A stretch of 40,726 nucleotides of DNA from Opitutaceae bacterium (GTDB taxonomy: Bacteria > Verrucomicrobiota > Verrucomicrobiia > Opitutales > Opitutaceae): the NCBI GenBank assembly GCA_028280955.1, contig JANQKU010000173.1:1-40726 (forward strand), written 5' to 3'. Positions 19,294-34,232 of the stretch are shown here, piece by piece (position 1 is the first letter of the stretch; the number at the start of each line of letters is the position of its first letter). Made by a program: the position numbers and the translations under genes. The notes beneath the pieces were generated by a model. The model worked only from the letters and a program-made list of their open reading frames with translations, was not told where the DNA came from and searched no databases.

Positions 19294-19423
19294 GCCTGGA
19301 CGGCTACGTCATCTCCGCTATTGCTCCGTCTGATTTTCAGAAATAGTGGGAGAAGTTGTTTTATCCGCAGTCCCGATGTTATCGGGGTCATTAAAATGAA
19401 TTTTGATGAGAAACTCTGAAGTC

Positions 19424-19462
19424 TTTAGACAGGATCAACAAGATTAACAGGATAGGATTTTT
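19424..19462 (+). repeat. 9-mer dispersed repeat, copy A
   Basis: TTTAGACAGGATCAACAAGATTAACAGGATAGGATTTT: three ACARGATYA-type units. Confidence 0.75.
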
Positions 19463-19471
19463 GGAAGATGG

Positions 19472-20641
19472 TTAAGTATAGGGAAATGAAGTGAGAAATT
19501 CGGGGAGACTGATGGCTGTGACGGTTTCGGAAAGAGGAAAGGACTTTCCCTCGGGAGTTAAGAAATAACCTCGTGTTGCCTGGAGGGTCTTCATACTTTC
19601 GATAAAGCCGGAGCTGAGTTTTGGAGAGAGGGTACGTTTGATCTCGATGGCATGGATTTCTCCCGTCGGTGTTTCGACAACCAGATCCACCTCCGCTCCG
19701 GCATGGGTGCGGTAGTGGCTGAAATCATGGGTTTTGGGCAGTCGGGTTAGAATCTGTTCGAGGCAATAGCCTTCCCATGAATGGCCACAGATTGGGTGAC
19801 CGAGCACTTGTTCGAGATTTTGAAGACCAGCGATTGTGTGGAGTAAACCCGTATCTCTCCAGTAGACTTTGGGAGATTTGACGAGGCGTTTTCCGGCGTT
19901 GCGACTCCACGCGGGGACAGAACGGACAAGGTAGAGGCCTTCTAAAAGATCGAGATAATGGCGAGCTGTTTTGCCATCGATGCCGAGAGATCCAGCTATT
20001 TTGCTAAGGTTGAGAGTGGTCCCTTGTTGATGAGTGAGCATGGAACAAAAACGACGGAGCAATAACGGGGTGGCAGTGATACCAAGCTGAGGGAGGTAAC
20101 GCTCGACATAACTGGTGACAAAGTCTTCACACCATTGGATTGAGGCGGTATCATCTGGAGCGAGATAGCTATCGGGATAGCCTCCACGGAACCAGTGTTG
20201 CTCCATGACTTTAGCTTCATTACCTAGCTCGATGAGGTTGAGAGGATGAAGTTCGAGATAGCTGATACGACCGGCAAGAGTTTCAGAGCTTTGTTGGAGG
20301 AGTTCAGGGGAGGCAGAGCCAAGAATGAGGAACTGAACCGCTTTTTCGCCTGCCCTGCGACGTTCATCGACTAAGCTGCGGAGAACCGGGAACAGATTAG
20401 GTAATCGTTGGATTTCATCCAGAATGACGAAATGATTGGAGAATTTGGTAAGATAGAGCTCAGGGTCAGCTAATTTGGCGATGTCGGAGGGACGCTCAAG
20501 GTCGAGGTAATGAGTTGGTTTGTCTATGTTGATCCTCTGTGCCAATGTGGTCTTACCAACTTGTCGAGAGCCAAGGAGGGCTACTATGGGGGTTTGTAAA
20601 ATGCGATTCCGTAAGGTGGATTCCAGCTTTCGAGTGATCAT
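19472..20641 (-). CDS. AAA ATPase with C-terminal DUF4143 domain
   Basis: Walker A 'LLGSRQVGKTTLAQ', Walker B 'HFVILDEIQRLP', 'ILGSASPELLQQSSETLAGRISYLELHPL', C-terminal 'SHYRTHAGAEVDLVVE'. Confidence 0.9.
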   Translation of the reverse strand: MITRKLESTLRNRILQTPIVALLGSRQVGKTTLAQRINIDKPTHYLDLERPSDIAKLADPELYLTKFSNHFVILDEIQRLPNLFPVLRSLVDERRRAGEKAVQFLILGSASPELLQQSSETLAGRISYLELHPLNLIELGNEAKVMEQHWFRGGYPDSYLAPDDTASIQWCEDFVTSYVERYLPQLGITATPLLLRRFCSMLTHQQGTTLNLSKIAGSLGIDGKTARHYLDLLEGLYLVRSVPAWSRNAGKRLVKSPKVYWRDTGLLHTIAGLQNLEQVLGHPICGHSWEGYCLEQILTRLPKTHDFSHYRTHAGAEVDLVVETPTGEIHAIEIKRTLSPKLSSGFIESMKTLQATRGYFLTPEGKSFPLSETVTAISLPEFLTSFPYT

Positions 20642-20684
20642 TTACCTTGAAAATAAGGAATTGATTCCGGGTTTTCAAGGTAAA
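20641..20684 (-). promoter_or_regulatory. Concentric palindrome / hairpin at the start codon of the DUF4143 ATPase
   Basis: 13-bp perfect arms 641-653 (TTTACCTTGAAAA) and 672-684 (TTTTCAAGGTAAA), with an inner GGAAT-tg-ATTCC (657-668) sharing the same centre (20662.5). Confidence 0.8.
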
Positions 20685-20932
20685 GATGCCAAAAATAGTC
20701 CTTTCATCCACTGTTTCATCATGGAGAGCAAGGGATTGAACGGTTTCTGGGCCTACAGTTTTTTTATTAAAGTTTGTTTTTTAATTCGAAGTGATTTTTG
20801 TATCATTCTGCTGATGAAGGAGTTGTATTTTTCAGGCTCTGGATGCAGGAGTACAGGTGAAACAAAGTGGATGAGCCTGAGGTCCCATTAAGTTCTCGTA
20901 ATTGGCAATTTTAGAGCTTTTTTCTTAACGTT

Positions 20933-23900
20933 CTGAAAAAGACGTCTGCAACGGTTTGGTGGTCCCTTGTTAAGTGGGCCTTTAGAGGAATCCTCATCGG
21001 GATTGCTTTTACTGTTATTGGCCTAGCGACTCTTCCGTTTTGGCTGGGCTCTGCCATTCGCATTTTTGCGCCGGAAGATAGTGTCGTCTATGAACGATAT
21101 GAGCGGATGGGCTATGGGCGTTTTGCCCTGACCAATGTTGTGGCAACAACCCCGCAGGCTTCGGTGATGATTGATCGAGTCGAAGCCTATTCTCCCGTGG
21201 TCTGGCTGTGGAAGGCTGTATGGGAAGATGTGTCGCAATCTTTTGTGGCTGCGGGAGCGGTTCGAGTGGATCTGCTGGAATCTCAAGATCCACCGAAGGA
21301 ATTTGCAGGAGAAGTTCCTGAAAATCTATTAGAGGTGATCGAAATGATCGAAGAGTCCTCCGGGTTAGTCGCGTCTTGGATGCCTTTTGCCACAGTCGAT
21401 GTCGTTCAGGCAAAGATGAATGATCAGGCAATTGTCTTGCGTGAAATAACCTGGCGAGAATCACGTTTTTCACTGATAGTGTCTCATGATCGATTTTCTG
21501 AATACGAATGGGATCTGGTGGCCGATCTGAACAGTGAAGAGATGGTTGTTCGATTTGTTTCCGAGGAAGCGGGACTGATGATTGAAAACAAGCTCAGCGC
21601 CGGTGAGGAACAGGCAGACTTATCGGTGCGAATCCTTTATAAGGAAAATCTTTTGGAAGCAGTCGCACTTTTTGGAAGAGAGGGTTGGCTACCTTTTGAA
21701 GCGAGTTGGCAGGGGATCGATTGGTCGGTGGCATCATCGGATTTTGGGAAGGAGGGGCCGTATGCGAGATATGATTTTACGCTCTCGGGTGACTGGAAAG
21801 AGGGTGTTTATCGTAACCATATCAGTGGCGAAACGATACCAATAGAGGAAGATGTCTATGGTTTGCCGTCGGTGAGTTTTGAGAGTTCTCTTTCAGGTAA
21901 TTTAGAGAGGTTGGATATCGAAACGTTTCGTCTTTCTTCTCCGGGATTGAAAGCGCAGGCGGTAGAGCCGGTGGGGATTGAATTGGCCAATCGTCAACTG
22001 ACGGGTGAAATGAAATGGGATATTGACCTGGATCTGACGCTTTTGCAGATCGAAGCTCTAGCAGGCTCTCTTTCCGGTGAAGCGTTTTTGAGCGCTGATG
22101 AAGCAGGAGCATCAGTCGGGAGGTTTGTCCTGCAAGGTACGGATGTTTCTTATGAAGATTTAACGGCGGAGGTCTTTGCGATCGAGGCCACTTTGCAATG
22201 GCCCAAATTGCGTATTGAAACGATGGATATTGTATTGGATACGGGTTCCAAGGTATTGGCAAAGGGGGCTGCTGATCTGGCAAATCGTCAAATGGCCCCG
22301 AGTTCTTTGCAGATTGTTTTTTCGGAAGAGGTTTTGAAAAGGTTCATGCCTGAGGGAGTTGCGGCCCAAGAGGTCAAGGCTTCCGTCGAAGTTGAAGGTC
22401 CCTGGGAGTCGTTGACCCATTCGGGTTCCGCTGAAGTCGGTTTGTTTGAAACGAAGTCACTGAAACCGTTATCGGTTGCGGTCGAATGGCAGGGTGAAGG
22501 CACGTCGTTTGAGCGGCTTCAAGTGGAGGCAGGCAATGGGGAAGCCGGTCTAGAAGCCTTGCTTAAGGGGTCTTTGCTGGATGAGCGGATCGAGGTGGGT
22601 ATGGAGACGTTCGAGCTTTCCAATGTCCAGGGAATCTTGGCATCACTAGATTCTCCAGTGGCGATGACTTTTTTATTAGGCGATTTGATTGAGGGAGCAG
22701 TCGAAGGGTTTTCTCTTTCCGGAGAAGAGGCTCAGGTAGTTTTGGCAACGGAATTTGCCTATCCGGAAAAAGCGAATTTTTCTATCGAGATCAAAGGATT
22801 AAATACGGAGGAGTGGGTTGATCCCTGGTTGAAAACACCTTCGCCAAAGGCTCAATTGAATGAGATGAAGATGTTGGCTCATTGGGATGAGGGTCCGATC
22901 GAGGCGGAGGCGATGTTGGATGGCACAGTCGAGCTGAATGAGAGTGAACTGCTCTTTAAAGGAGAGCTTTCCTTGCTCAAAAAATCGATACGATTGAATG
23001 CTTTTGCGGTTTCTGATCTGGAGGGTGAACTTATGAAGATGGAAGGCGAGCTGCCCTACCAGGTGGATCTTTCCACGACGGACTTTTTGGTAGCCGATAA
23101 GGGAGGGAAATTGGCTCTTTCGATAGAGACGAGTGATAGCCCGACGATTATTTCTCTGGTCGATGTGGTTCATCCGTTGGGGGTAGAATCGCTCAATGCG
23201 CAGGTGAATCTTGAGGGGACACTCGAGAACCCTCAGGGTGATTTGGTCTTCAGCATCCTGACAAAGAAGGGTGAAGGTGAACATGGAGTGCCTCCGACGA
23301 GAGTGAAGGCGAAGGCTCAAATCGATGGAAGAACGTTGCGGATAAGCGAGATGGTGGCGGAGGTTTTGGAGGATAGGTTCGAGGCATCGCTGGAAGTTGT
23401 TTGGCCCGAGGAGGCATTGAAACTGGCTGCTCTGGAGCCGGTAGAGGTTGATTGGCTCTCAACGGAAGTGGCTTTTGTCGCGCCGAAAACGAAGTTGGCA
23501 CCCATAGCGTTCTTCGCTCCGCAGGTGCTTGCCCCGAGTGGTGAATTTGAAGCCGAGTTGAATGGAAATTTAGTGAAAGGGTTCAACGGATTTGTTACTC
23601 TAGAGAATCTGAATACACGGCCGATTTTTCCATTTGGATCCTTCCGTGACATTCAGACCCGATTGGAATTCGGTCAAACGATCGCGACGTTGCAGGCGTT
23701 CAAGGGTAATATTGGCCGGGAGCCGATGACAATGCAGGGGCAGATCGACTTTCGGGATATAGATGACTTGGTCTTTGCCTTCACCATGAAGGGTGAAAAT
23801 TTGCCAATGGTAAGGAAGGCGGGTCTTTTGCTTCGCTCGGATTTGGATGTCGTCGTCAGTAAAGAACTCGAAAGTGAAGCAAAAATCACAGGCACGATTG

Positions 23901-24694
23901 AGATGCGGGAGGGTCTTTTTTTGATCGATACAAGGGTTTTAACGGCTTCGGGCGGTGGAGGTCAGTCGGCGAAATCACGACCTCCTTATTTTTCGGTGGA
24001 AGTGGAGCCGTTTGCGGATTGGGAATTGGACATCGCAGTGAAGGGAGAGCGATTTATGAGGCTGCGAACGCCGGCCGCTACGGGAGCCCTTTCCATTGAT
24101 ATGAACCTGAAAGGAACATTGGAGGAGCCGTTAGCGATCGGGAGGGTCGAATTCGATGAGGGAAATTTGATGTTTCCGTTTGCCTCGTTTAATTTGACAG
24201 AGGGTTTGGTAGATATCCGTATTGAAGACCCTTATACGCCGATGATCAGTTTGCTGGGAGAAGCGCGACGCTTTCGCTATGATCTTGGCATCGAAATTAC
24301 GGGTTCGGCTTTTGATCCGAGTGTTCGTTTTACCTCTAGTCCACCCTTGTCGTCCGAGCAGATTTTGTTGATGGTGATGACTGGGGATGTGCCCGATTCG
24401 AATTTTACCTATAGCACAACGCAACGCGCTTCTAAGATAGGCACTTACTTGAGCCAGGGTCTTTTGTCATCAGGTAGTGAAGGTGGTTTGGGAAGCCGAT
24501 TCAGTATAGAGTCGGGCCAGAATTTATCGGAACAAGGGAAGGAAACTCTGGAGGTAGAGTTTAAGCTGGATGAGAGGTTTCAATTGTTGGGGGAATACGA
24601 TGAGTATGATGAGTGGAATGGAGGCGTTCGCTGGCGGATATTGAGACGACAACCGAAGGAGAGGGCACCCAGTGAGGAGGAGGAATCGAAATGA
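20933..24694 (+). CDS. tamB: TamB/DUF490-like translocation and assembly module protein (N-terminus uncertain)
   Basis: Very long beta-repetitive protein ending in a TamB-type C-terminus ('IGRVEFDEGNLMFPFASFNLTEGLVDI...SSPPLSSEQILLMVMTGDVP...VEFKLDERFQLLGEYDEYDEWNGGVRWRI'). The frame upstream of ATG 21107 encodes a membrane anchor (VKWAFRGILIGIAFTVIGLATLPFWLG), so translation probably starts upstream. CTG at 20933 is one possible non-canonical start. Confidence 0.85.
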   Translation: MKKTSATVWWSLVKWAFRGILIGIAFTVIGLATLPFWLGSAIRIFAPEDSVVYERYERMGYGRFALTNVVATTPQASVMIDRVEAYSPVVWLWKAVWEDVSQSFVAAGAVRVDLLESQDPPKEFAGEVPENLLEVIEMIEESSGLVASWMPFATVDVVQAKMNDQAIVLREITWRESRFSLIVSHDRFSEYEWDLVADLNSEEMVVRFVSEEAGLMIENKLSAGEEQADLSVRILYKENLLEAVALFGREGWLPFEASWQGIDWSVASSDFGKEGPYARYDFTLSGDWKEGVYRNHISGETIPIEEDVYGLPSVSFESSLSGNLERLDIETFRLSSPGLKAQAVEPVGIELANRQLTGEMKWDIDLDLTLLQIEALAGSLSGEAFLSADEAGASVGRFVLQGTDVSYEDLTAEVFAIEATLQWPKLRIETMDIVLDTGSKVLAKGAADLANRQMAPSSLQIVFSEEVLKRFMPEGVAAQEVKASVEVEGPWESLTHSGSAEVGLFETKSLKPLSVAVEWQGEGTSFERLQVEAGNGEAGLEALLKGSLLDERIEVGMETFELSNVQGILASLDSPVAMTFLLGDLIEGAVEGFSLSGEEAQVVLATEFAYPEKANFSIEIKGLNTEEWVDPWLKTPSPKAQLNEMKMLAHWDEGPIEAEAMLDGTVELNESELLFKGELSLLKKSIRLNAFAVSDLEGELMKMEGELPYQVDLSTTDFLVADKGGKLALSIETSDSPTIISLVDVVHPLGVESLNAQVNLEGTLENPQGDLVFSILTKKGEGEHGVPPTRVKAKAQIDGRTLRISEMVAEVLEDRFEASLEVVWPEEALKLAALEPVEVDWLSTEVAFVAPKTKLAPIAFFAPQVLAPSGEFEAELNGNLVKGFNGFVTLENLNTRPIFPFGSFRDIQTRLEFGQTIATLQAFKGNIGREPMTMQGQIDFRDIDDLVFAFTMKGENLPMVRKAGLLLRSDLDVVVSKELESEAKITGTIEMREGLFLIDTRVLTASGGGGQSAKSRPPYFSVEVEPFADWELDIAVKGERFMRLRTPAATGALSIDMNLKGTLEEPLAIGRVEFDEGNLMFPFASFNLTEGLVDIRIEDPYTPMISLLGEARRFRYDLGIEITGSAFDPSVRFTSSPPLSSEQILLMVMTGDVPDSNFTYSTTQRASKIGTYLSQGLLSSGSEGGLGSRFSIESGQNLSEQGKETLEVEFKLDERFQLLGEYDEYDEWNGGVRWRILRRQPKERAPSEEEESK

Positions 24695-26814
24695 GATCGA
24701 CTTCGGCTAAAAAGATGTGGCAGCGTTGTCTCCTGGTCTTTTGTGTGATTTTGGTCTTTTCGGGGTCGGGTTTCGAATTGGAGGCGAAGGAAGAACCGGA
24801 GCGAGCGAAGTGGTCCGTCAAAAAGGGAGGATTTTTTAAGAACCGCAGTCTGAAGAAGCAGCTCGATCTGATTTTTAATGAAGAGAAGGCCGAGTTTACG
24901 GCATCGGATATTGAAGATGCTGCTTTGATTTTGATTTCTTACCTGGAGACGGAAGGTTACCTGGCGGCAAAAACGCTGGCGACAATTACTTTGGTGGATG
25001 GAACGGAAAAAACAGTGGAATGGGACAGTCATTTTGATGTTTTTTTGCCGCGTGATACGTCTGCGACCTTTGTTCGTTTCGACTTAATTGAAGGGCCTGG
25101 TTTCTATTACCAGGAGTTGGAGATAGTTGGGAATCAGGTTTTGGCAGTAGAGGAGGTAGAGGCATTCTTTTTTTCAGAGCCGTTCCTGTTTCAGAGTGAG
25201 AAGGCTCGTTTGTTTACGCCGGGGTTGTTGCAAAGAGGTGGTGGAAATCTGCAAGCGCATTTGAATCATTTGGGGTATAAGGATGCTCTGGTCAAAACTG
25301 AGGTCTTGAGTATGGACAAAGAGACCGGAGCCTGTCTGGCGCAGGTGGTAATCGATGAAGGGGTCAAGCATTACGTAAAAGATGTCACAGTCGTTATCAA
25401 AGGAGACCCTCCAAAGTCGTCGGTAGATGTATCGCCCTACTTGGGACAACCTTATAATCGTTTCATTGCTCAGGATATTGCAAAAGAGTTGCGCAACCGT
25501 TTTTTTGAAGTTGGTTATCCGGATACAGTTATCAAGTCATCGCTAAAGGTTGGGCCTGAATCAAAAAAGGGAAAGGGTGTTGAAATATCGATTGAAGTTG
25601 AGCCAGGGGTTCAGGTCTTTGTCAGTTCCATCACCTTTGTAGGATCTGAGGAGACAAAACCTTCGTTGATTAGATCGCGGCTGAAACTGAATGAAGGTGA
25701 TCCATTGAACCCTTCGCTTTTAGAGGATTCGCGACTGAACTTGTCGCGCTTGGGAGTGTTTGATCGGGTGACTTACAACCTGGAACCTGTTGAGGAGAAG
25801 CTCCGATCGGTTGAGTTTAGTTTGACCGAGCGAACAACATGGAATGTGGACATGCTTTTTGGGTGGGGAAGCTATGAGCAGCTACGCGGTGGGTTTGTGG
25901 TGGAAAAGATGAATATTTTTGGACTGGGGCATCGAGCCCGATTGAAGACGATCGCTTCTATGAAGAGCTATTTGGGTGAAGTGGGTTATCTCGTTCCCGA
26001 AATTTTTGGAACCCCTACTTCGTTGTCCGTGAAGGTCTTTGCGTTAGAACGAGAAGAGATCGCTTTTGTGCGAGAGGACTTCGGATTGAATGTAGGTTTG
26101 TCGCGCCAATTCGAAAGAATGGGATTGGATGTGGATACGGTTTACTCCCTAAAAAATCTGGATTTGGGATTTAATAATCTGGGCGATGAGTTGGCCAATC
26201 AGGAAAGTGCGATGGTAGGGAGCCTTGAATTACGTTTGGGAAGAGATCGGCGTGACAGCGCCTTAAACCCAAGAGAGGGTTACCGGATTTTCAGTCGGAC
26301 GGAGTGGGCGGCCAAACCACTCGGTGGTGAAGTGGATTATCAAAGGGCGGAATTTGGTGCTTCGATGCACGGTGAGATATCGCGTGGTCTCTTCTGGCAT
26401 GCAGGATTGACGCATGGAGTGATTGGGTCTTTTGCGGAAGCAGAGAAGCAGGTGCCGGCGAGCGTGCTTTTTTATCCGGGTGGCGAGAGTTCGATTCGAG
26501 GGTACCAGAGAACGGAAGCTGCGCCAAGGGACACGGAGGGCAAGTTCATCGGCGCTCGTGCCTACACGCTCTTGAATCTCGAACTCGAGCAGTTGTTGTC
26601 CGATTCATTATCACTTGTTTTGTTTGTCGATGGATTGGGGACAGCATCGACTATCGAGAAGTATCCTTATAACGATACCTTAGCTTCTGTGGGATTGGGT
26701 CTTCGTTTTAAAACATTTATGGGTCCGATCCGCTTTGAGTACGGACATAATCTCAATCCACGTGCTTTGGATCCGGAGGGAACCTTCCATTTTTCGTTAG
26801 GCTATCCGTTTTAG
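24691..26814 (+). CDS. tamA: Omp85/BamA-superfamily outer-membrane protein with POTRA domains (TamA-like)
   Basis: ATGA overlap with the tamB stop. POTRA-like repeats. C-terminal Omp85 motifs 'YPGGESSIRGYQR' and 'GLGLRFKTFMGPIRFEYGHNLNP...GTFHFSLGYPF'. Confidence 0.87.
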   Translation: MRSTSAKKMWQRCLLVFCVILVFSGSGFELEAKEEPERAKWSVKKGGFFKNRSLKKQLDLIFNEEKAEFTASDIEDAALILISYLETEGYLAAKTLATITLVDGTEKTVEWDSHFDVFLPRDTSATFVRFDLIEGPGFYYQELEIVGNQVLAVEEVEAFFFSEPFLFQSEKARLFTPGLLQRGGGNLQAHLNHLGYKDALVKTEVLSMDKETGACLAQVVIDEGVKHYVKDVTVVIKGDPPKSSVDVSPYLGQPYNRFIAQDIAKELRNRFFEVGYPDTVIKSSLKVGPESKKGKGVEISIEVEPGVQVFVSSITFVGSEETKPSLIRSRLKLNEGDPLNPSLLEDSRLNLSRLGVFDRVTYNLEPVEEKLRSVEFSLTERTTWNVDMLFGWGSYEQLRGGFVVEKMNIFGLGHRARLKTIASMKSYLGEVGYLVPEIFGTPTSLSVKVFALEREEIAFVREDFGLNVGLSRQFERMGLDVDTVYSLKNLDLGFNNLGDELANQESAMVGSLELRLGRDRRDSALNPREGYRIFSRTEWAAKPLGGEVDYQRAEFGASMHGEISRGLFWHAGLTHGVIGSFAEAEKQVPASVLFYPGGESSIRGYQRTEAAPRDTEGKFIGARAYTLLNLELEQLLSDSLSLVLFVDGLGTASTIEKYPYNDTLASVGLGLRFKTFMGPIRFEYGHNLNPRALDPEGTFHFSLGYPF

Positions 26815-26854
26815 GTTTTTTGGACAGGATTAACAAGGTCTAGAGGATCCTTTT
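26815..26854 (+). repeat. 9-mer dispersed repeat, copy B
   Basis: GTTTTTTGGACAGGATTAACAAGGTCTAGAGGATCCTTTT, directly after the tamA stop. Confidence 0.65.
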
Positions 26855-26983
26855 AGATAGTTTAAAATGGAAATATGAGTGGCGGTTTGGTTTTTGGACA
26901 GTGTGTTCTCTGTGAAGGATCGTGAGAAGCTGGAAGAAGGTATTCGATAAGAAGTAAAATCAAAAAATAGGCTTGATAAAATA

Positions 26984-26998
26984 CCTTACTATGTAAGG
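26984..26998. promoter_or_regulatory. Inverted repeat upstream of the toxin-antitoxin pair (putative operator)
   Basis: CCTTAC-TAT-GTAAGG, 8 nt before the ATG at 27007. Confidence 0.5.
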
Positions 26999-27006
26999 GT
27001 AATTAG

Positions 27007-27339
27007 ATGTTCACTTTTATTGAACATCCTACGTTTACCAAACAAATCAATTCCTTGTTTAATGATGAAGAGTATAGACGATTCCAAAATGAACTTGCAG
27101 CTAATCCTAAATCTGGTGATGTCATCCCCAGTTTGGCAGGGTTGCGCAAAGTTCGTTGGGGAGCAAAAGGAAAAGGCAAGCGTGGAGGAGCGAGGATCAT
27201 TTATCTATCCATCCCCCAATCGAATATCTTTTACTTGTTCTATGCTTACACTAAAGGTGATATAATGGATATGAACACAGACCAAAAGAAGCGGCTGCGT
27301 AAAGCTGTTGAAGATATAAAAAAGGAGTATCAGAAATGA
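27007..27339 (+). CDS. RelE/HigB-family type II toxin
   Basis: 'FTKQINSLFNDEEYRRFQNELAANPKSGDVIPSLAGLRKVRWGAKGKGKRGGARIIYLSIPQSNIFYLFYAYTKGD' is typical of this family. Followed by an overlapping HTH antitoxin. Confidence 0.88.
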   Translation: MFTFIEHPTFTKQINSLFNDEEYRRFQNELAANPKSGDVIPSLAGLRKVRWGAKGKGKRGGARIIYLSIPQSNIFYLFYAYTKGDIMDMNTDQKKRLRKAVEDIKKEYQK

Positions 27340-27659
27340 AAAAGACCAAAATCCAATTTGATGCAGACGAATTTTTAAGTGCAGTCGAAGACGTGCGTGA
27401 TCATGTGGCAAAAAAGAAGAAGGTTACACTGCGTACGACGAAGGTAAAGTTGCCAGACGTTGCGCCTGAGATTACTCCAGAGGAAATCGTAGCAGCTCGT
27501 GAGGCCCTTAATCTGAGTCAACCTGTTTTTGCCCGTTTGTTGAATGTTCCAACAGTGACGGAAGTCAGTTGGGAAAAAGGTCGCCGTAAGCCATCTGGAG
27601 CTGCCTTAAGGTTGCTGCAAATTGCTCGTAGACACCCTGATGTTTTACTCAAAGCTTAA
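27336..27659 (+). CDS. HTH (XRE/NadS-like) antitoxin
   Basis: ATGA overlap with the toxin stop. 'ALNLSQPVFARLLNVPTVTEVSWEKGRRKPSGAALRLLQIARRHP' is a HigA/NadS-like HTH. Confidence 0.87.
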   Translation: MKKTKIQFDADEFLSAVEDVRDHVAKKKKVTLRTTKVKLPDVAPEITPEEIVAAREALNLSQPVFARLLNVPTVTEVSWEKGRRKPSGAALRLLQIARRHPDVLLKA

Positions 27660-27708
27660 GGCTGCAAAGTGATAGGTTTTTTTAAATATATGCCTACCTG
27701 TCTTTGTA

Positions 27709-27737
27709 TTCTATCCTGTTAATCTTGTCTAAAATTT
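27709..27737 (-). repeat. 9-mer dispersed repeat, copy C (reverse)
   Basis: Plus strand ...CTATCCTGTTAATCTTGTCTAAAATTT; reverse complement TTTTAGACAAGATTAACAGGATAG. Confidence 0.75.
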
Positions 27738-27800
27738 CTTTCGAATAGGAGGTTTGGTTTTTGCTCGCACTGTTGAGGGTTGTGACATTTTAAAACCACC

Positions 27801-29039
27801 GTGGCAAAAAAACCGTTTAATGATTTCCCCTTTTCCTATCATCAAGAGATTGAGCTGGAGATTACCACTCTGACCAATCTTGGGGTGGGCTTGGGCCGTG
27901 TCCCTTTGGGAAGTGAACCGGAGAAGAGGTCTGGTTGGGTGGTCATGGTGCCGTTTGCCCTACCGGGAGAGAAGGTGTTGGCCCGAATTTTTCGAAACCA
28001 ATCGGGGCATTCTGAAGCGGATTTGATCAGGGTTTTGGAAACTTCGAAAGACAGGGTGGAGCCGCCTTGTTCTTTGTTTGGAAGGTGTGGAGGCTGCCAG
28101 TACCAGCATCTTAACTACGAAGCTCAATTGGAATGGAAGCGAACGCAGGTGCAGGAACTGCTTCTGCATATGGCAAAGATAGAATTTGAAGTGAGTTCGG
28201 TGATTGCGTCGCCGAAAGAGTATGGCTATCGTTCAAAGATAACGCCACATTTTGAGAGGCCGCGTTCAGATAAACCTTTGCCGATTGGGTTTCGCCAGCA
28301 GGGGAAACGTTTCGGGGTGGTGGATGTGCCTGAATGTCTCTTAGCAACGGAGGGGATCAATGAGCGCCTGACGACATTGCGCGAAGAGGTTCTTGAAAAG
28401 GCCGGTACGTATAAGAAGGGAGCAACGCTCTTGCTTCGAGATGCTGTGGAGGGGGTATCGACAAATCCGAAAGAGATTATCAGCGAGAGGGTTCAGGGTT
28501 TGGAGCTACAGTTTCCGGCAGGCGAATTTTTTCAGAATAATCCGTTCATTTTGGATACGTTTACGGAGTATGCCGGAGATCAGGCCAAGGGAGCAGGAGC
28601 TCGTTATTTAATCGATGCCTATTGTGGCAGTGGATTGTTTTGTTTAACGGCGGCAGGCTCTTTTGAACGGGCGACGGGGATTGAGATCAGCGAGCAATCC
28701 ATTAAATGGGCGCGGGAAAATGCCAAACGAAACGGGCTGGAAAATTGTGAATTTATCCTGGGGCAGGCGTCTTCAATTTTTGAACAGGTCAAGGATCCGG
28801 CTGACGAAACAGCTGTGATCATCGATCCTCCGCGGAAGGGTTCTGATGCACTTTTTTTGAGTCAGCTGCTTGCCTATGGCCCCAAGACGGTGGTTTACAT
28901 TTCCTGTAATCCGGCAACCCAGATTCGTGATCTTCAGCAGTTGGTTGAGGGTGGGTATCAAGTGAAGGCGGTGCAGCCGTTTGATCTGTTCCCCCAGACA
29001 CGGCATTTGGAATGTGTGGTGACTTTGGGGAGAGTTTAA
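27801..29039 (+). CDS. TRAM-domain RNA (uracil-5)-methyltransferase, TrmA/RlmD family
   Basis: GTG start. TRAM-like N-terminus, Fe-S Cys set 'CSLFGRCGGCQYQHLNYEAQLEWKR', SAM motif 'LIDAYCGSGLFCLTAA', catalytic 'VIIDPPRKG...VVYISCNPATQIRDL'. Confidence 0.93.
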   Translation: MAKKPFNDFPFSYHQEIELEITTLTNLGVGLGRVPLGSEPEKRSGWVVMVPFALPGEKVLARIFRNQSGHSEADLIRVLETSKDRVEPPCSLFGRCGGCQYQHLNYEAQLEWKRTQVQELLLHMAKIEFEVSSVIASPKEYGYRSKITPHFERPRSDKPLPIGFRQQGKRFGVVDVPECLLATEGINERLTTLREEVLEKAGTYKKGATLLLRDAVEGVSTNPKEIISERVQGLELQFPAGEFFQNNPFILDTFTEYAGDQAKGAGARYLIDAYCGSGLFCLTAAGSFERATGIEISEQSIKWARENAKRNGLENCEFILGQASSIFEQVKDPADETAVIIDPPRKGSDALFLSQLLAYGPKTVVYISCNPATQIRDLQQLVEGGYQVKAVQPFDLFPQTRHLECVVTLGRV

Positions 29040-29098
29040 TCCGTAGATTAAACAGCCAAAAAGACATCCTGTTGATCTTGTTAATCCTGTCTAAAAAC
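29037..29098 (-). repeat. Composite dispersed repeat, copy D (reverse)
   Basis: AATCCGTAGATTAAACAGCCAAAAAGACATCCTGTTGATCTTGTTAATCCTGTCTAAAAA: same two-part layout as copy F. Confidence 0.75.
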
Positions 29099-29129
29099 CA
29101 TCATTCCGTCGCAGTTTTTTTGATGAGAA

Positions 29130-30434
29130 TTATTTTTGAGGATGCCACCAGACTTCGTTGCCGAGGGCGAGATCGTGTAGACCACTGCCGGCTTCGCCTT
29201 TGGTGAAAATGATACCGGGGATGTCCGGCACTTGATTGTGACCAGTGGTGCGTTCGATGTTGGGGAGCCAATGCGCGCGGGTGGAGTCGGGGGTGATGAT
29301 TTCGCTTTGAAAGGTCTCCATGCCGTCTTCAGACCACAGGCGGACGATCTCGGTGTTACTGTGGCCCCATTCTTTAGCCAAGTTATTCGAGGATTCCCCG
29401 TCGGATAATTTGACTAAAGCCGTTATGATAGAAGCATGACCAGAACGGCTGAATGTTATGCCACCACCCATACCGAGTATGCAGCGATGATTACGCCAGT
29501 CTTTCGGTAAATAGGGAGTAAGATCACGCTGATTCCATTTAGCGTGACCATTAGGTGAGGCGAGAATCAATGACGAGGTTTCACCGCGATCACTGGTGTA
29601 AACGATCCAAGGTTTTCCGGATGGATCTACGGCGAGCGGACCTGAGCTGAGGTTGATGCCGTTGTCGAGCTCGCCCTTAGCGATCACATCAATGTTGTCT
29701 CCTGTGACTGGTAATGTGACTGGAGTGCCGTCGGATTTCGTCCATGTTTTTCCGGCATCGGGGCTGACCAGATATCCAACTGTGGTCAATGCAGTGTTTT
29801 CTTTACTCGAGAGCCGTTCGTAAATGCGGCAATTGAGATGTAAGGTGCGATGGTCTGGTCCCCAGGCCAAGGCGGTGGCGAATTGCGCATACTCCACAAC
29901 GCGGGAAGCAATCAATGTATTCAGGTAACGCCATTCACCGTCGGCCGGTTTTTCCCAGAGCTCCTGGGTAAAGGGGTTCACCTGCGGGTCATTGTCGGGG
30001 TCGCCGCGTCGCGCCGTAAGAATGAGTGTATCATCTGGCGTACAGACGACGGTGGGGAATGACAACGCTTGGCCAAAACGGATTTCCGGTTCCCATGCTG
30101 AAACATCGTGTGGTCGAGTGGAACGTCGATGGCGGAATTGTTCGTGATGAGGATAAAAAATGATGTGAAGATGCCCTTGGCTGTCGATGGTCAGACCCGG
30201 ACCGCCGTGATTGTCTTGTGCTTCACCGACGGTGACGGTAGCCGACCATTTACCGGTTGTTTGATCGAGGGTGCGAACCCGCACACGGAAGCCTTCGCTG
30301 CCGGCATCCAGCCAGGCGATGTAAGTTTTGCCGTTTGCCGTGATGATTTTGGGTTGCTCTGAATAAGCGGTAGCACGGCCACTGCCTTCACTGGAGACAA
30401 GAAACGGCGTGGGGTGAGAGGGGGTCTCTTTCAC
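29130..30434 (-). CDS. BNR_4-like repeat protein (beta-propeller, sialidase/polysaccharide-lyase-like)
   Basis: 'DNHGGPGLTIDSQGHLHIIFYPHHEQFRHRRS', 'YLVSPDAGKTWTKSDGTPVTLPV' and 'PSGKPWIVYTS' are typical of BNR_4 proteins. Confidence 0.75.
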   Translation of the reverse strand: MKETPSHPTPFLVSSEGSGRATAYSEQPKIITANGKTYIAWLDAGSEGFRVRVRTLDQTTGKWSATVTVGEAQDNHGGPGLTIDSQGHLHIIFYPHHEQFRHRRSTRPHDVSAWEPEIRFGQALSFPTVVCTPDDTLILTARRGDPDNDPQVNPFTQELWEKPADGEWRYLNTLIASRVVEYAQFATALAWGPDHRTLHLNCRIYERLSSKENTALTTVGYLVSPDAGKTWTKSDGTPVTLPVTGDNIDVIAKGELDNGINLSSGPLAVDPSGKPWIVYTSDRGETSSLILASPNGHAKWNQRDLTPYLPKDWRNHRCILGMGGGITFSRSGHASIITALVKLSDGESSNNLAKEWGHSNTEIVRLWSEDGMETFQSEIITPDSTRAHWLPNIERTTGHNQVPDIPGIIFTKGEAGSGLHDLALGNEVWWHPQK

Positions 30435-30443
30435 AGGTTTGGT

Positions 30444-30545
30444 TGGGTTGAGGAGTTGTTTTTATCTGCAGATTTGCGCAGATTGGCACAGATTTTTTAA
30501 AGTAGGGGGTGTCAATTTTTTAGACAAGATTAACAGGATTTTGTA
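30444..30545 (+). repeat. Composite dispersed repeat, copy E
   Basis: TTGGGTTGAGGAGTTGTTTTTATCTGCAGATTTGCGCAGATTGGCACAGATTTTTTA...AATTTTTTAGACAAGATTAACAGGATTT. Confidence 0.7.
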
Positions 30546-30599
30546 ATGTATGTAGCCCGTTAGTCATATAGAAGGTCAAATGGGTTGAGAGTTTTTATG

Positions 30600-30671
30600 A
30601 TCCGCAGATTTGAAATACCATTAACGCAGATTAAACAGTCACTGACATATCCTGTGGATTCTGTCTAAAAT
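30600..30671 (-). repeat. Composite dispersed repeat, copy F = left inverted repeat flanking the K+ channel gene
   Basis: ATCCGCAGATTTGAAATACCATTAACGCAGATTAAACAGTCACTGACATATCCTGTGGATTCTGTCTAAAA. Confidence 0.85.
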
Positions 30672-30779
30672 TCACTGCAGCCTTGATTTCTCCTTTTTAG
30701 AAAAAATTCTGAAAAATAGAAATAGTTTTTAGTCTTTTGTTGTTTGGTTCAGTTTGTAGAGTTTGTTTAACCTTAATTG

Positions 30780-31601
30780 ATGAAATCTGAACGCCCCGTA
30801 AAAGATTCCTGGAGAACGTCTCTGCATGAAATTATTTTCGAAGCAGAGACTCCGGCAGGAAAGGTGTTCGATGTTGGGTTGTTGCTTACTATCGTGTTAA
30901 GCGTGGTGGCAGTTTGCATTGAGAGTGTGACAGTTTATCGCATTACCTATGGTAGTTGGTTGAGAGCTTTTGAATGGGGGCTGACGATTTTGTTTACCAT
31001 AGAATATGGACTAAGGTTGATGGCGGTTCGACGACCTTTTCGTTATGCTTTCAGTTTTTTCGGGATCGTTGATTTTTTGGCGATTTTGCCGACGTATTTG
31101 AGTTTGTTCATTGTCGGAACCCAATCGCTGCTGGTGATTCGAGCGTTGCGCTTGTTGCGGGTCTTTCGAGTGCTAAAATTGAGTCACTTTGTGGGAGAGG
31201 CTCAGATGTTACGTGCAGCTTTGAAGGCAAGTTTACGTAAGATCATTGTCTTCCTGGGTGCGGTTTTGACGATTGTGTTAATCGTTGGGACGTTGATGTA
31301 TTTGATTGAGGGGGAGGAGAACGGGTTTACCAGTATTCCGCGAGGGATTTACTGGGCAATTGTGACGATGACAACGGTTGGCTACGGAAATGTAACCCCG
31401 CATACAGTGGCCGGCCAGACTTTGGCTTCGATAGTGATGATTTTGGGCTACGGCATTCTCGCAGTGCCGACAGGCATTATCTCGGTGGAACTCGCCGGAG
31501 TGACTCGTCAAAAGGTGTCGACGGAAGCTTGCCCGGAATGCAGTGATGAGGGGCATGCGGAAGGGGCTAACTTTTGCAAAAACTGTGGCTCCAAACTTTG
31601 A
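30780..31601 (+). CDS. Voltage-gated potassium channel (Kv-like, 6TM) with C-terminal zinc ribbon
   Basis: S4-like 'LLVIRALRLLRVFRVLKLSHF', selectivity filter 'TMTTVGYGNVTP', C-terminus 'CPECSDEGHAEGANFCKNCGSKL'. ATG at 30780 (the track uses TTG 30777). Confidence 0.93.
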   Translation: MKSERPVKDSWRTSLHEIIFEAETPAGKVFDVGLLLTIVLSVVAVCIESVTVYRITYGSWLRAFEWGLTILFTIEYGLRLMAVRRPFRYAFSFFGIVDFLAILPTYLSLFIVGTQSLLVIRALRLLRVFRVLKLSHFVGEAQMLRAALKASLRKIIVFLGAVLTIVLIVGTLMYLIEGEENGFTSIPRGIYWAIVTMTTVGYGNVTPHTVAGQTLASIVMILGYGILAVPTGIISVELAGVTRQKVSTEACPECSDEGHAEGANFCKNCGSKL

Positions 31602-31721
31602 TTGAAAGTTCCTTTTGACCCATTAGCTGTGTTTTACTCGAACAGATGGGCCATTTAGCCCAATCTGCCCAAGCGAGCCTTGCTGAGTGAATCAAAAGAG
31701 CCCTTCAATCATTATGTGATT

Positions 31722-31801
31722 TTTTAGACAGGATTAACAAAATCTACAGGATATGTCAGTGACTGTTTAATCTGTGTTAATGGTATTTCAAATCTGCGGA
31801 T
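31722..31801 (+). repeat. Composite dispersed repeat = right inverted repeat flanking the K+ channel gene
   Basis: Reverse complement ATCCGCAGATTTGAAATACCATTAACACAGATTAAACAGTCACTGACATATCCTGTAGATTTTGTTAATCCTGTCTAAAA. Matches copy F over 61 nt with 2 mismatches, then has one extra 9-nt unit. Confidence 0.85.
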
Positions 31802-31874
31802 AAACTATTATCCTAGTTCTGAAAATCCTCATGCCACGGATGAGTATATTGGACAGGATGGGTTATTTTTCTAT

Positions 31875-32567
31875 CTAGCGGGCTTCGATCCATTCGGGAG
31901 AAGCGTATTGATCGATGAGAGCCGTTTCTTCGTCGGGATCAAAATCCGGCCAGCCGGGGTATTCGATTTCGGCGTCTGCCAATTTGGCGAGGGAGGCGGG
32001 AAAGGCTTCGGCAAAACGCTCCCAGTCTAATCCGGGTAAAAGAGGCTTCCAGATAGATCCCTGGAAGAGGAGGCCTTTTTTATTCCGTTTCATGGCAGCT
32101 CCGGCGACTTTGGTCCCATTGGTTGCGAGGACGACATCATTGATTTCTGCTCGGGTGAAACAGATACCCATAGGTGTTTCGGGTGGTTGTTCTTCGAGGC
32201 AGACTCCGGCGCTTTGTTGATTGAGGGCGTCAACCATTGCGGCGTGGATTTGCCGGTAAACATTTGGCCCGGGGCGTTGGCAGAGGTCATGTTTTCTCGG
32301 AATGACAAGGGCATAAGTCCAATCTTCCCGGTGGTCCACCAGCCCGCCTCCGGTGGCTCGTCGTGAAATATCGAGCGTTTCTTCGGGTAGTTGTTGGCGA
32401 ATGAAGTCGATTTTTTGACTGAGGCCAAAGGTAAAAGCAGGGCGACGCCATTCATAGTGGCGAAAGCGGAAGGCGTCTGCAGGGGTGAAGCGTTGTAGCA
32501 TGAGAAAGTCGAGCGCCATGTTTTCGGCGGCATCACCAAGACGATCAGGGAAGATAAGGAACTTCAT
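31875..32567 (-). CDS. Lipoate-protein ligase A-like (BPL/LPL catalytic domain)
   Basis: 'MALDFLML', 'SRRATGGGLVDHREDWTYALVIP', 'NDVVLATNGTKVAGAAMKRNKKGLLFQGSI'. Confidence 0.85.
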   Translation of the reverse strand: MKFLIFPDRLGDAAENMALDFLMLQRFTPADAFRFRHYEWRRPAFTFGLSQKIDFIRQQLPEETLDISRRATGGGLVDHREDWTYALVIPRKHDLCQRPGPNVYRQIHAAMVDALNQQSAGVCLEEQPPETPMGICFTRAEINDVVLATNGTKVAGAAMKRNKKGLLFQGSIWKPLLPGLDWERFAEAFPASLAKLADAEIEYPGWPDFDPDEETALIDQYASPEWIEAR

Positions 32568-32632
32568 GGAGTGGTAAAGAAGACGGTGGTCGAACAGGTT
32601 TTTCCCGTTTCGGGTGTCTTACCAGAGGCCTT

Positions 32633-34090
32633 CTAGCGCCAGTCTGGAAGATGACGGGTTAATTCGGCATCTCTTTCTTCTTTTGCCAGGACTATTTTGG
32701 CCCGAATGATTTCACGTGTTTCGTCTTCTTTATCTTTCAAGTCTTGCTGCAGTTCTTCAATCTGCCGTTCATACGCATGTATTTTTTCCTGAATCTTTGG
32801 ATGAAGATCAGCGAGTCGGGCTTCGAGTTCTTGGACCTGTGCAGTGGCAGAGGATTCATTGGAAAGCATCTGGCGTCGCTGAGAGACGAGGCCAACGACA
32901 AGTTTGTCTTTCAGTTGACGGGCCAGATGAGGAAGCAGGCGTTCACGCAGGTCTCCATTGGGATTGAGAGGCTCCTCAGATAGAGCGAGCTGTGAGCCGG
33001 CGGGGTGTCTCCTGTGACGGCGAGTCATCGAGAAAACAAGGAAAATGGAAAGAAGAACAGTGGCAGCGATCGCACTCCAAAACCATTTGGGGTCGATCGC
33101 TTCGGAGAAGGGTCCAGCGGGAATGGGCGCGGGTTGAGTGATGGTTAAAATGACAGGTTTGAGTTTTTTGAGATGGTCTATCGCAGCGATGGTTTGTAGC
33201 GAAACCAGATCGCCTTTGGCGATAATGAGTTGCCCGGGGTCATAGCGCATAGCGTTCCAGAGATCGGCTATTTCCAATGCGTGTTGCTGGTAGGTCAATT
33301 CTTCTTCAAACTGCAAGGTGGGCTCGACGAGAGACGAAATGAATTCTTTGAACTGCCATCTTTCCTGGGTGAATTTATCGGAGATAGCCGTTTTGATTTG
33401 TGAGAGGGGGATGAGATCGCTTTTGCCGAAGTATTCACCGGAATCCAATTCCAGAGCGCTGAGTTCCTGGTCGGAATGAAGTGGCGTAACTACGAGAATC
33501 CGGGGGGAACTGGCCAGTCGTTCTGAAAGCTCGCTATCATCGATGATGTGGCGTTTTCCGATAGCTTCGGCAATGGCGAACTTGTATTGCATCAGAACAC
33601 GATTTCCGGAATCGCCTGTTCCCCAGGTTTTAGCCAGCGCGGGCGTAATGACAAACTCACTCTGGGTGGGTTTAAATCTTTTCTGGAAGAGTGCGAATTG
33701 GCTGGAGCTCAGCTCCATCTTGTCGAGTTTGCTGTGACCAAAGTTACTTTCCAGTTCCTTGATAAACTCGTCACGCGCCCGGAGGAAAGCAGTCGTCAAT
33801 TTTGATTCAACTTTCTCTTTGGTTGCAGGATGATAGGAATAAATGGGAGCGAGTTGTCCCAGTCTTTCTTCACGTTCGGTTTCTGTTCTTTCAACATCCA
33901 GAACGACTAGCTGAACAGGCGTATAAAGATCGGCAATGGCAGTATCTCCAGGGGAGTAGTCGGGGATGTCCGGCCAGACAATTTCCTCCATACCCGACAG
34001 GCTAGCACCACTAATGAAGAGCAGGGCGCAGAAAAAATACCGTTGTAAAGGGGTCAATCGGATGGAGTTTTGAGCAGGTGTGAAGATCAC
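32633..34090 (-). CDS. Membrane protein with 7TMR-HDED-like ectodomain, single TM and C-terminal coiled coil
   Basis: N-terminal signal. 'PDYSPGDTAIADLYTPVQLVVLDVERTETEREERLGQLAPIYSYHP' and 'YDPGQLIIAKGDLVSLQTIAAIDHL' resemble the PgpH extracellular domain. Then TM 'WSAIAATVLLSIFLVFSM' and a charged coiled coil to the end. Confidence 0.6.
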   Translation of the reverse strand: MIFTPAQNSIRLTPLQRYFFCALLFISGASLSGMEEIVWPDIPDYSPGDTAIADLYTPVQLVVLDVERTETEREERLGQLAPIYSYHPATKEKVESKLTTAFLRARDEFIKELESNFGHSKLDKMELSSSQFALFQKRFKPTQSEFVITPALAKTWGTGDSGNRVLMQYKFAIAEAIGKRHIIDDSELSERLASSPRILVVTPLHSDQELSALELDSGEYFGKSDLIPLSQIKTAISDKFTQERWQFKEFISSLVEPTLQFEEELTYQQHALEIADLWNAMRYDPGQLIIAKGDLVSLQTIAAIDHLKKLKPVILTITQPAPIPAGPFSEAIDPKWFWSAIAATVLLSIFLVFSMTRRHRRHPAGSQLALSEEPLNPNGDLRERLLPHLARQLKDKLVVGLVSQRRQMLSNESSATAQVQELEARLADLHPKIQEKIHAYERQIEELQQDLKDKEDETREIIRAKIVLAKEERDAELTRHLPDWR

Positions 34091-34196
34091 GGTGAAGGGG
34101 AATCTTTATAAATAACAGCTTTTATCGGTAGCCGCGAGTAGCCGATTGTGCAATGAAGAAAATCGAAGGGATTTTTATTCCAGAGGCTGCCTAAAA

Positions 34197-34232
34197 AATT
34201 TTAGACAGGATTAAGAGGATCAACCAGCAGTT
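34197..34232 (+). repeat. 9-mer dispersed repeat, copy G
   Basis: AAATTTTAGACAGGATTAAGAGGATCAACCAGCAG. Confidence 0.65.

Follow-up and report, generated by a model that had tools for sequence, protein, structure and literature searches.

Tandem heptamer repeats dispersed between genes of an Opitutaceae bacterium and their possible spread at replication forks

The repeat family in the window and its host genome

The window, i.e. the whole 40,726-nt stretch of Opitutaceae DNA that was analysed, carries eight copies of an ACARGAT array plus one remnant. A three-unit array with a T-run at its left end (TCTTTAGACAGGATCAACAAGATTAACAGGAT) is located at 19419–19455 on the plus strand (model R1, E 1.4e-9). 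It is followed by a plus-strand array at 26812–26850 (E 3.8e-9), which reads TTTTTTGGACAGGATTAACAAGGTCTAGAGGAT and abuts the stop codon of the ORF at 24691–26814. An RlmD-like gene (27801) has a two-unit minus-strand array about 60 nt upstream (27705–27740, E 1.7e-8) and a three-unit minus-strand array right behind its stop codon (29063–29101, E 2.5e-11). The two-unit plus-strand array at 30514–30545 (E 6.5e-9) is the left arm of an inverted pair, whose right arm is a degenerate minus-strand array at 30641–30674 (ACAGAATCCACAGGAT in the minus-strand reading). Two further plus-strand copies, with three units and two clear units, lie at 31717–31756 (E 2.8e-11) and 34193–34230 (E 9.7e-9), respectively. 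By reading the sequence we recognised two additional plus-strand features: a one-unit remnant, TTGGACAGGATGGG, at 31849–31862, where a degraded piece had been noted, and a sister-word array with a 10-nt period (GCAGATTTGC GCAGATTGGC ACAGATTTTT) at 30467–30498, just 5′ of the copy at 30514. A repeat search (repeat I1) revealed a 65-nt composite of a CGCAGATT repeat and an ACARGAT arm at 30600–30664, which is a 95% inverted match to its partner at 31737–31801; an ion-channel gene (30777–31601) lies between them.

The 43-column sequence model R1 derives from the host genome's own copies and partly includes those of the window. At E ≤ 1 it detected exactly the eight sites of the original prediction, in the predicted orientations, and no others, the weakest being the right arm at 30641 (E 2.7e-6). 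With up to three mismatches, ACARGATTAACARGAT matches 11 times in the window versus 1.23 expected, and none of 100 shuffles reached 11. As had been proposed, all eight copies are situated between ORFs, and seven of the nine gaps of at least 60 bp between 19.3 and 34.3 kb are occupied. In the host genome, sequence searches point to about 60 copies: 36 matches with at most one mismatch, versus none for the reversed control, and 68 matches to model R1 at E ≤ 1. The window is a hot spot: it makes up 1.1% of the assembled DNA but carries 7 of the 34 strict copies (binomial P 8e-8), and the clustering persists when the window is left out (P 0.002). The motif is far above chance level and not confined to the loci of the window; genome-wide scan, clustering, gene-context and neighbour tests agree on a dispersed intergenic family. 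The repeat family is thus confirmed as real, and it is larger in extent than first noted.

Architecture of the arms and related words in other genomes

The unit had been described as a fixed nonamer. The 9-nt period was borne out, but the unit is a conserved 7-nt word followed by a loose 2-nt linker (ACARGATnn), which is repeated two or three times behind a T-run. An arm is composed of T4–7, (A/G/T)G and two or three 9-nt units, with TTTT(A/G)G or TTTTTA as its conserved border. Copies occur as single arms or as inverted pairs, and across copies the words are conserved while the linkers drift. In 52 inverted ACARGAT pairs the heptamers of both arms agree at 93%, a value partly set by the search pattern, whereas the agreement of the linkers, which is free of it, is 49% versus 46% in permuted pairs (P 0.19). 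The linkers of the G006 pairs agree at 38% versus 41% permuted, and neither the linkers nor the A/G positions of paired arms covary. Since covariation between the arms of pairs is missing, no hairpin is conserved. Outer inverted flanks, i.e. nesting, were found in 22% of pairs versus 3% of permuted ones.

The larger class to which ACARGAT belongs also includes CACAGAG, CACGAAG, CACGGAT and further words; it has a 9–10-nt period, two to four units per array and linkers of 2 nt as well as 3 nt. This class is present in 42 of 76 relatives, and within one family the genera carry between 0 and 154 copies. Several words are found side by side in one genome, the CACGGAG word also occurs in relatives, and at one gene junction the word differs between several genera. 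Three-unit ACARGAT arrays were retrieved from more than 118 stretches of public genomes covering many bacterial phyla and archaea, where about 0.2 would be expected by chance. Phages and E. coli yielded no matches and plasmids only four records. No Rfam family matches the repeats, and the open-access literature held nothing relevant matching the repeat sequences themselves. Short intergenic repeats are usually dismissed as species-specific clutter; here the same 7-nt words cross phyla and two domains.

A precedent for the class is known from one genome, that of Geobacter metallireducens. PMC2700814 describes its multicopy class-2 sites as three tandem repeats with the consensus TCTCCGTS[Y] and with one word, the sites forming opposite-strand pairs with varying spacing; they were called unique to this genome and read as IHF/HU sites. 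TCTCCGTS[Y] is the reverse complement of the CACGGAG word, from which ACARGAT differs. Both systems share three tandem repeats of about 9 nt and opposite-strand pairs. The class seen here is wider in words, phyla and domains: ACARGAT and other words occur in bacteria and archaea, and further differences are the occurrence of single arms, the orientation along the fork, one empty site and the absence of hairpin covariation.

Candidate insertion sites, gene context and replication polarity

At one gene junction the site is empty in outgroups. In G010, RfbD and LplA overlap as ATGA (CCCGATGAAACTG) with no array, and in G002 the stretch TTTTTGGGACACAGAG(x3)...CTCTGTGCCGTAAAAA sits exactly between the TGA of the RfbD/LplA junction and the ATG. 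It is important to note that this single clean empty site involves CACAGAG and not ACARGAT. The relatives are too diverged to give exact empty sites for the copies of the window, and gaps were compared instead: the RlmD–LplA gap spans about 25 bp in G018 versus 2.8 kb in the host genome, where it contains four arms and the remnant. The corresponding region of G006 is not syntenic with that of its genus-mate G076. No target-site duplication was detected, the flank repeats equalling those of permuted pairs. The repeated ATGA at the G002 site may stem from the stop and start codons that are required there.

The gene context equals the null, since copies fall into convergent, co-directional and divergent gaps as often as gap length predicts, and so does the orientation of the copies. 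Among 131 neighbour proteins no Pfam family is common to more than three and no co-mobilised gene was found. This agrees with the view that no ORF is tied to the copies, and a co-mobilised gene was rejected.

In the closed relative G005 (ori at about 2.09 Mb and ter at about 4.45 Mb according to GC skew), the purine strand is on the leading strand in 62/62 ACARGAT arms listed, out of 97 model matches, and in 82/83 listed arms of other words, i.e. in 144/145 listed arms overall. Base composition alone predicts about 3:1 for a AACCACGGAT array and 14:1 for an ACARGAT array. No concentration of the G005 copies at the terminus was apparent. The host genome shows a milder bias, with 24 of 32 single arms in polar orientation (P 0.007) and 7 of 14 paired arms. 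G021 has 50 of 62 polar arms, which is not clearly beyond its base-composition odds of about 2.8:1, and polarity is absent from G006, where the skew is weak. Across phyla, most arms are found in inverted pairs (79 paired arms), which have no polarity, and single arms lack a significant skew bias (22/39). Near-absolute polarity is seen in G005 only, and polarity could have been selected rather than set at insertion. Inverted pairs, the crossing of phyla and domains and the fork-following orientation in a relative were out of reach of the original prediction.

The lead of a TnpA-REP-like transposase did not hold up: the host genome (86% complete) has no Y1_Tnp match, and there is no family-level link. 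Copy number and Y1_Tnp show a weak correlation over all 76 genomes (Spearman 0.39), but within the family no association is left (Fisher P 0.72), and both are also correlated with genome size. G000, G005, G024, G026 and G030 contain copies and no Y1_Tnp match. Within the family, a comparison by eye likewise showed no relation between RVT_1 and copy number. As Y1_Tnp lacks a within-family association, RAYT/IS200 was rejected as the current driver; reverse transcriptase was likewise rejected because G006 and G055, the two richest genomes, have no RVT_1 match.

Possible origin and spread of the repeats

The arrays are not genes, not terminators and not CRISPR. From CRISPR arrays they differ by their dispersed blocks of two to four units with 2-nt linkers, and no cas-type family is among the shared neighbour families. 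Simple terminators had been doubted before and were rejected, as the stem has its T-run on the 5′ side and its A-run on the 3′ side, whereas an intrinsic terminator shows the opposite order. Inverted pairs can fold and end in T- and A-runs, and a hairpin terminator or mRNA 3′-end stabiliser might be imagined; such an RNA-level role is nevertheless highly improbable and was rejected in view of the missing covariation of linkers and A/G positions, the null gene context and the lack of an Rfam match. With classical MITEs the repeats share short, non-coding inverted-pair elements in many copies, but they have no target-site duplication, no cognate transposase was found for them, and their neighbour proteins share no family. 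REP, BIME and REPIN elements (PMC3733652, PMC3116915) are similarly small, intergenic and multicopy, often form inverted pairs and occur in several phyla. The arrays, however, have no GTAG or CGTC tag beside their arms, consist of tandem 9-nt units rather than a hairpin, show no Y1 transposase association and extend to archaea. IS200/IS605 transposition causes no target duplication, a feature that the arrays share along with the fork-following orientation in G005. According to PMC6006769, members such as IS608 and ISDra2 target the lagging-strand template, and their orientation can follow the fork. Unlike these elements, the arrays lack a transposase gene as well as a conserved subterminal hairpin, and several array-rich genomes lack the transposase family. 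Mobilisation as REP/REPIN-type palindromes by a Y1 (RAYT or IS200/IS605) transposase that is now often lost would accommodate the weak overall correlation, but appears quite unlikely given the genomes with copies and without Y1_Tnp.

Conserved 7-nt words, a 9–10-bp period, inverted pairs and arms without covariation resemble a row of protein sites, and PMC2700814 interpreted its class-2 sites in this sense. That the arrays serve a nucleoid or global regulator protein as tandem binding sites is still unlikely, considering the range from 0 to 154 copies within one family, the null gene context, several words in one genome and the two linker lengths. Since IHF/HU are near-universal, they would not explain the patchy presence. 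Polar chromosome-architecture signals of the KOPS, Chi or AIMS type, held on the leading strand by selection, would account for the G005 arms and the host bias. The replichore bias is near-absolute in G005 and partial in G021 and the host. We regard such signals as rather unlikely, because the bias is absent in G006, most arms across phyla lie in pairs without polarity, and copies are not concentrated at the terminus. Polymerase slippage with template switching, a by-product without dedicated machinery or function, is suggested by the absence of an associated gene and by nested palindromes and word changes that look like copying errors; it is very unlikely, as identical words turn up in unrelated phyla and in archaea and slippage would copy the linkers along with the word, yet the linkers vary.

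We tentatively favour a scenario, quite possible though short of probable, in which the repeats are insertion-type elements of very small size that spread through a process coupled to the replication fork, with a putative enzyme or a host process behind it. Insertion is suggested by arms present or absent at orthologous junctions, the empty RfbD/LplA junction and the difference in the RlmD–LplA gap. Coupling to the fork is indicated by the G005 polarity and the single-arm bias of the host. Nesting, word changes at junctions, the loose linkers and the null gene context also speak for the scenario, which is weakened by the failure to find an enzyme or a target-site duplication, by near-absolute polarity in a single genome and by possible selection. 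An arm would be recognised as sequence, either in double-stranded DNA, as consecutive 7-nt sites, or through its purine strand when this lies bare on the lagging-strand template. New arms would then be copied in at replication forks with their purine strand on the lagging-strand template, and currently neither a Y1-type transposase nor a reverse transcriptase would be needed. An inverted pair would arise when a further arm inserts next to an existing one or within it, in line with the nested palindromes and with the differing words that related genera carry at one junction.

It is doubtful, but conceivable, that one undescribed fork-coupled copying mechanism spreads the whole class of 30–80-nt elements with differing words in bacteria and archaea and writes them always the same way round on the lagging-strand template, with no transposase, target duplication or hairpin involved. 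If polarity is set at insertion, it would point to a general route by which tiny pieces of DNA enter replication forks; if selection sets it, it would point to a polar signal not recognised so far. As the arrays accompany extra genes in the window, the repeats may mark sites of genome growth.

Copies of the repeat family and their anatomy

The original prediction listed eight copies of the ACARGAT repeat in the window (at about 19424, 26815, 27709 (-), 29065 (-), 30515, 30646 (-), 31722 and 34197) and a remnant near 31848; all were recovered at these places and in these orientations, and every copy lies between genes, as had been claimed. A sequence model built from the copies of the window's own draft genome (G000; 3.68 Mb, 286 contigs) found the same eight sites in the window and none besides. 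The two-unit motif has 11 matches there versus 1.23 expected, and of the nine gaps between 19.3 and 34.3 kb that measure 60 bp or more, seven hold copies. The genome-wide scan proposed at the outset placed the family above its control, with 36 matches at up to one mismatch versus 0 for the reversed pattern; the model gives 68 matches in the whole draft genome. Copies are clustered: the window's contig carries 7 of the 34 strict ones (P = 8e-8), and the excess of neighbours within 5 kb persists when this contig is left out; the clustering statistics are approximate because contigs were treated as one line.

An alignment of the copies yields an arm with the consensus TTTT(A/G)G-ACARGAT-nn-ACARGAT-nn-ACARGAT. 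Heptamers 1 and 2 are almost invariant, with one position free to be A or G; TA is the usual first linker in G000, the second linker is free, and a third unit is discernible in about half of the copies. The arm ends sharply at the T-run and fades at the opposite border. Many arms in other genomes form inverted pairs, spaced 4-60 nt apart.

Distribution and related words

When about 85,000 species genomes were scanned for exact three-unit ACARGAT arrays, more than 118 stretches were listed, against about 0.2 expected by chance for 41 specified bits and 5.1e11 positions on both strands of random sequence; a few matches are coding repeats. Among the matches listed, named bacterial hosts include Verrucomicrobiota, Kiritimatiellae, Lentisphaerae, Planctomycetota, Acidobacteriota (Blastocatellia), Chloroflexota, Bacteroidota, Proteobacteria, Desulfobacteria, Nitrospiraceae, Chlamydiota and Chthonomonadaceae, and archaeal hosts include Methanoperedens and ANME-2. 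Single assignments may be wrong because many records are metagenome bins, but the breadth of the distribution is not in doubt. Searches of phages and E. coli gave no match, and only four plasmids matched. In one fetched locus (L086:1453-1505) the array, if taken as the beginning of an ORF, would encode DRINRIDRIKK, because 9 nt make three codons.

In a tandem-word search of fetched loci, period 9 was prominent over the neighbouring periods 8 and 10, and other words, among them CACAGAG, CACGAAG, CACGGAG, CGCAAAG and CGCAGAT, were also found; period-10 forms (7 + 3) occur as well. CRCRRAG repeated three times with 2-nt linkers is present in 42 of 76 relatives, with the highest copy numbers in G006 (154) and G055 (127), and the reversed-pattern control is 0 in nearly all relatives. 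The G006 arms, bordered by TTTTTA/TAAAA, are embedded in a longer element. This genome also carries a separate repeat of ~175 nt (GAACAGAAGGCAACGAAGAG..., L239:470-643 and 2045-2220) in more than 20 near-full copies. Two other loci (L286 and L287, about 6.4-6.8 kb) hold period-7 palindromic arrays, GTGACRA x3, which resemble the heptanucleotide class of Geobacter metallireducens; their junction carries a CACGGAT array in another genus (L284).

Turnover at orthologous gene junctions

At orthologous junctions, arms of the class are present in some genomes and absent from others. RlmD, LplA and RfbD are kept together in relatives. RfbD and LplA overlap in G010 (ATGA), and G002 has a CACAGAG pair, with ends T5 and A5, placed precisely between their stop and start codons. 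The RlmD-LplA distance is about 25 bp in G018 and 2.8 kb in G000, where a BNR-repeat gene and an ion-channel gene lie in the interval together with four arms and the remnant. In the gap upstream of RlmD, six relatives have a tandem palindrome with differing words (CACGAAA, CACAAAG with period 10, CACGGAG, CACGGAA and one decayed), and the window has an ACARGAT arm. No target duplication was detected beside arms. Since outer inverted flanks accompany 22% of pairs versus 3% of permuted pairs, arrays often lie inside older palindromes.

Two features of the window lie among these copies. An inverted repeat of 65 nt (30600-30664 and 31737-31801, 95% alike), in which two repeat families are combined, brackets the ion-channel gene; no such gene lies between RlmD and LplA in the relatives that were examined. 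At 27007-27659, between a + and a - copy, is a toxin-antitoxin-like pair (a RelE-type toxin just below the Pfam cut-off and an MqsA/HTH-type antitoxin); the relatives examined showed no such pair upstream of RlmD.

Constraint, polarity and origin of the arrays

Linkers of inverted ACARGAT pairs do not covary (52 pairs, 49% agreement versus 46% when randomly re-paired, P = 0.19), nor do those of 40 G006 pairs (38% versus 41%); the effective number is somewhat smaller, as some listed pairs are register-shifted views of one array. Constraint therefore seems to act on each arm singly and not on the palindrome as a whole. The gene context is in line with this: co-directional, convergent and divergent gaps hold arms as often as their lengths predict, and arm orientation relative to co-directional genes is 34:27. 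A hairpin was rejected on the linker and gap data. The T-run precedes the stem and the A-run follows it, opposite to the arrangement of an intrinsic terminator; together with the gap usage, this bears out the earlier statement that the copies are no simple terminators.

In the closed chromosome of G005 (4.73 Mb, strong GC skew) the purine strand is on the leading strand in 62 of 62 ACARGAT model matches listed and in 82 of 83 TTTTTAACC-type arms, and orientation switches at ~2.09 and ~4.45 Mb, matching the GC-skew switches. This skew is very strong (about 0.2) in coding and intergenic sequence alike, as sampled in L346-L365. From base composition, odds of about 14:1 apply to an ACARGAT array, 3:1 to a AACCACGGAT array and <1:1 to TTTTTAACCACAAAT. 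Polarity of the TTTTTAACC-type arms is thus not due to composition (P = 4e-9 against 3.2:1), and that of the ACARGAT arms exceeds it only marginally (P = 0.015). Of the single arms in G000, 24 of 32 are aligned with the G-rich strand (P = 0.007); paired arms show no such preference (7 of 14). G021 shows 50 of 62, near what composition could give, G006, with weak and irregular skew, shows no polarity, and single arms across phyla have no significant bias (22 of 39). Polarity is strong in one genome, moderate in G000 and, on present data, not general.

We favour the view that the arrays are small elements of an insertion type, which enter by copying at replication forks. This draws on the presence or absence of the class at orthologous junctions, on words that are constrained although paired arms do not covary, and on the G005 polarity. 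The purine strand would be placed on the lagging-strand template and polarity would be set at insertion; pairs and nests may arise when arms land repeatedly beside or within older arrays. Protein-binding arrays and polar signals maintained by selection are the main alternatives. 'Predicted global regulator binding sites' were reported in Geobacter metallireducens in 2009; their class 2, for which IHF/HU was suggested as binder, consists of TCTCCGTS[Y] in three tandem copies, with sites in opposite-strand pairs at variable distance, and shares its architecture with the CACGGAG family (PMC2700814). REP families are like the arrays in size and location, but have tags, a hairpin and a transposase, none of which the arrays share (PMC3733652). 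The ACARGAT motif itself was not found in open-access papers.

The suggested lead of a REP-type transposase did not hold: neither G000 nor G005 has Y1_Tnp (RAYT and IS200/IS605), and within the family its presence shows no relation to copy number (Fisher P = 0.72); over the whole set, its correlation with copy number is matched by one with genome size. The two genomes with the most copies, G006 and G055, lack reverse transcriptases. Proteins nearest to cross-phylum arrays are ordinary and diverse. An AAA_14/DUF4143 ATPase (19472-20641) adjoins a window copy, and in L086 a broadly similar-looking protein (1559-2806) occurs close to copies.
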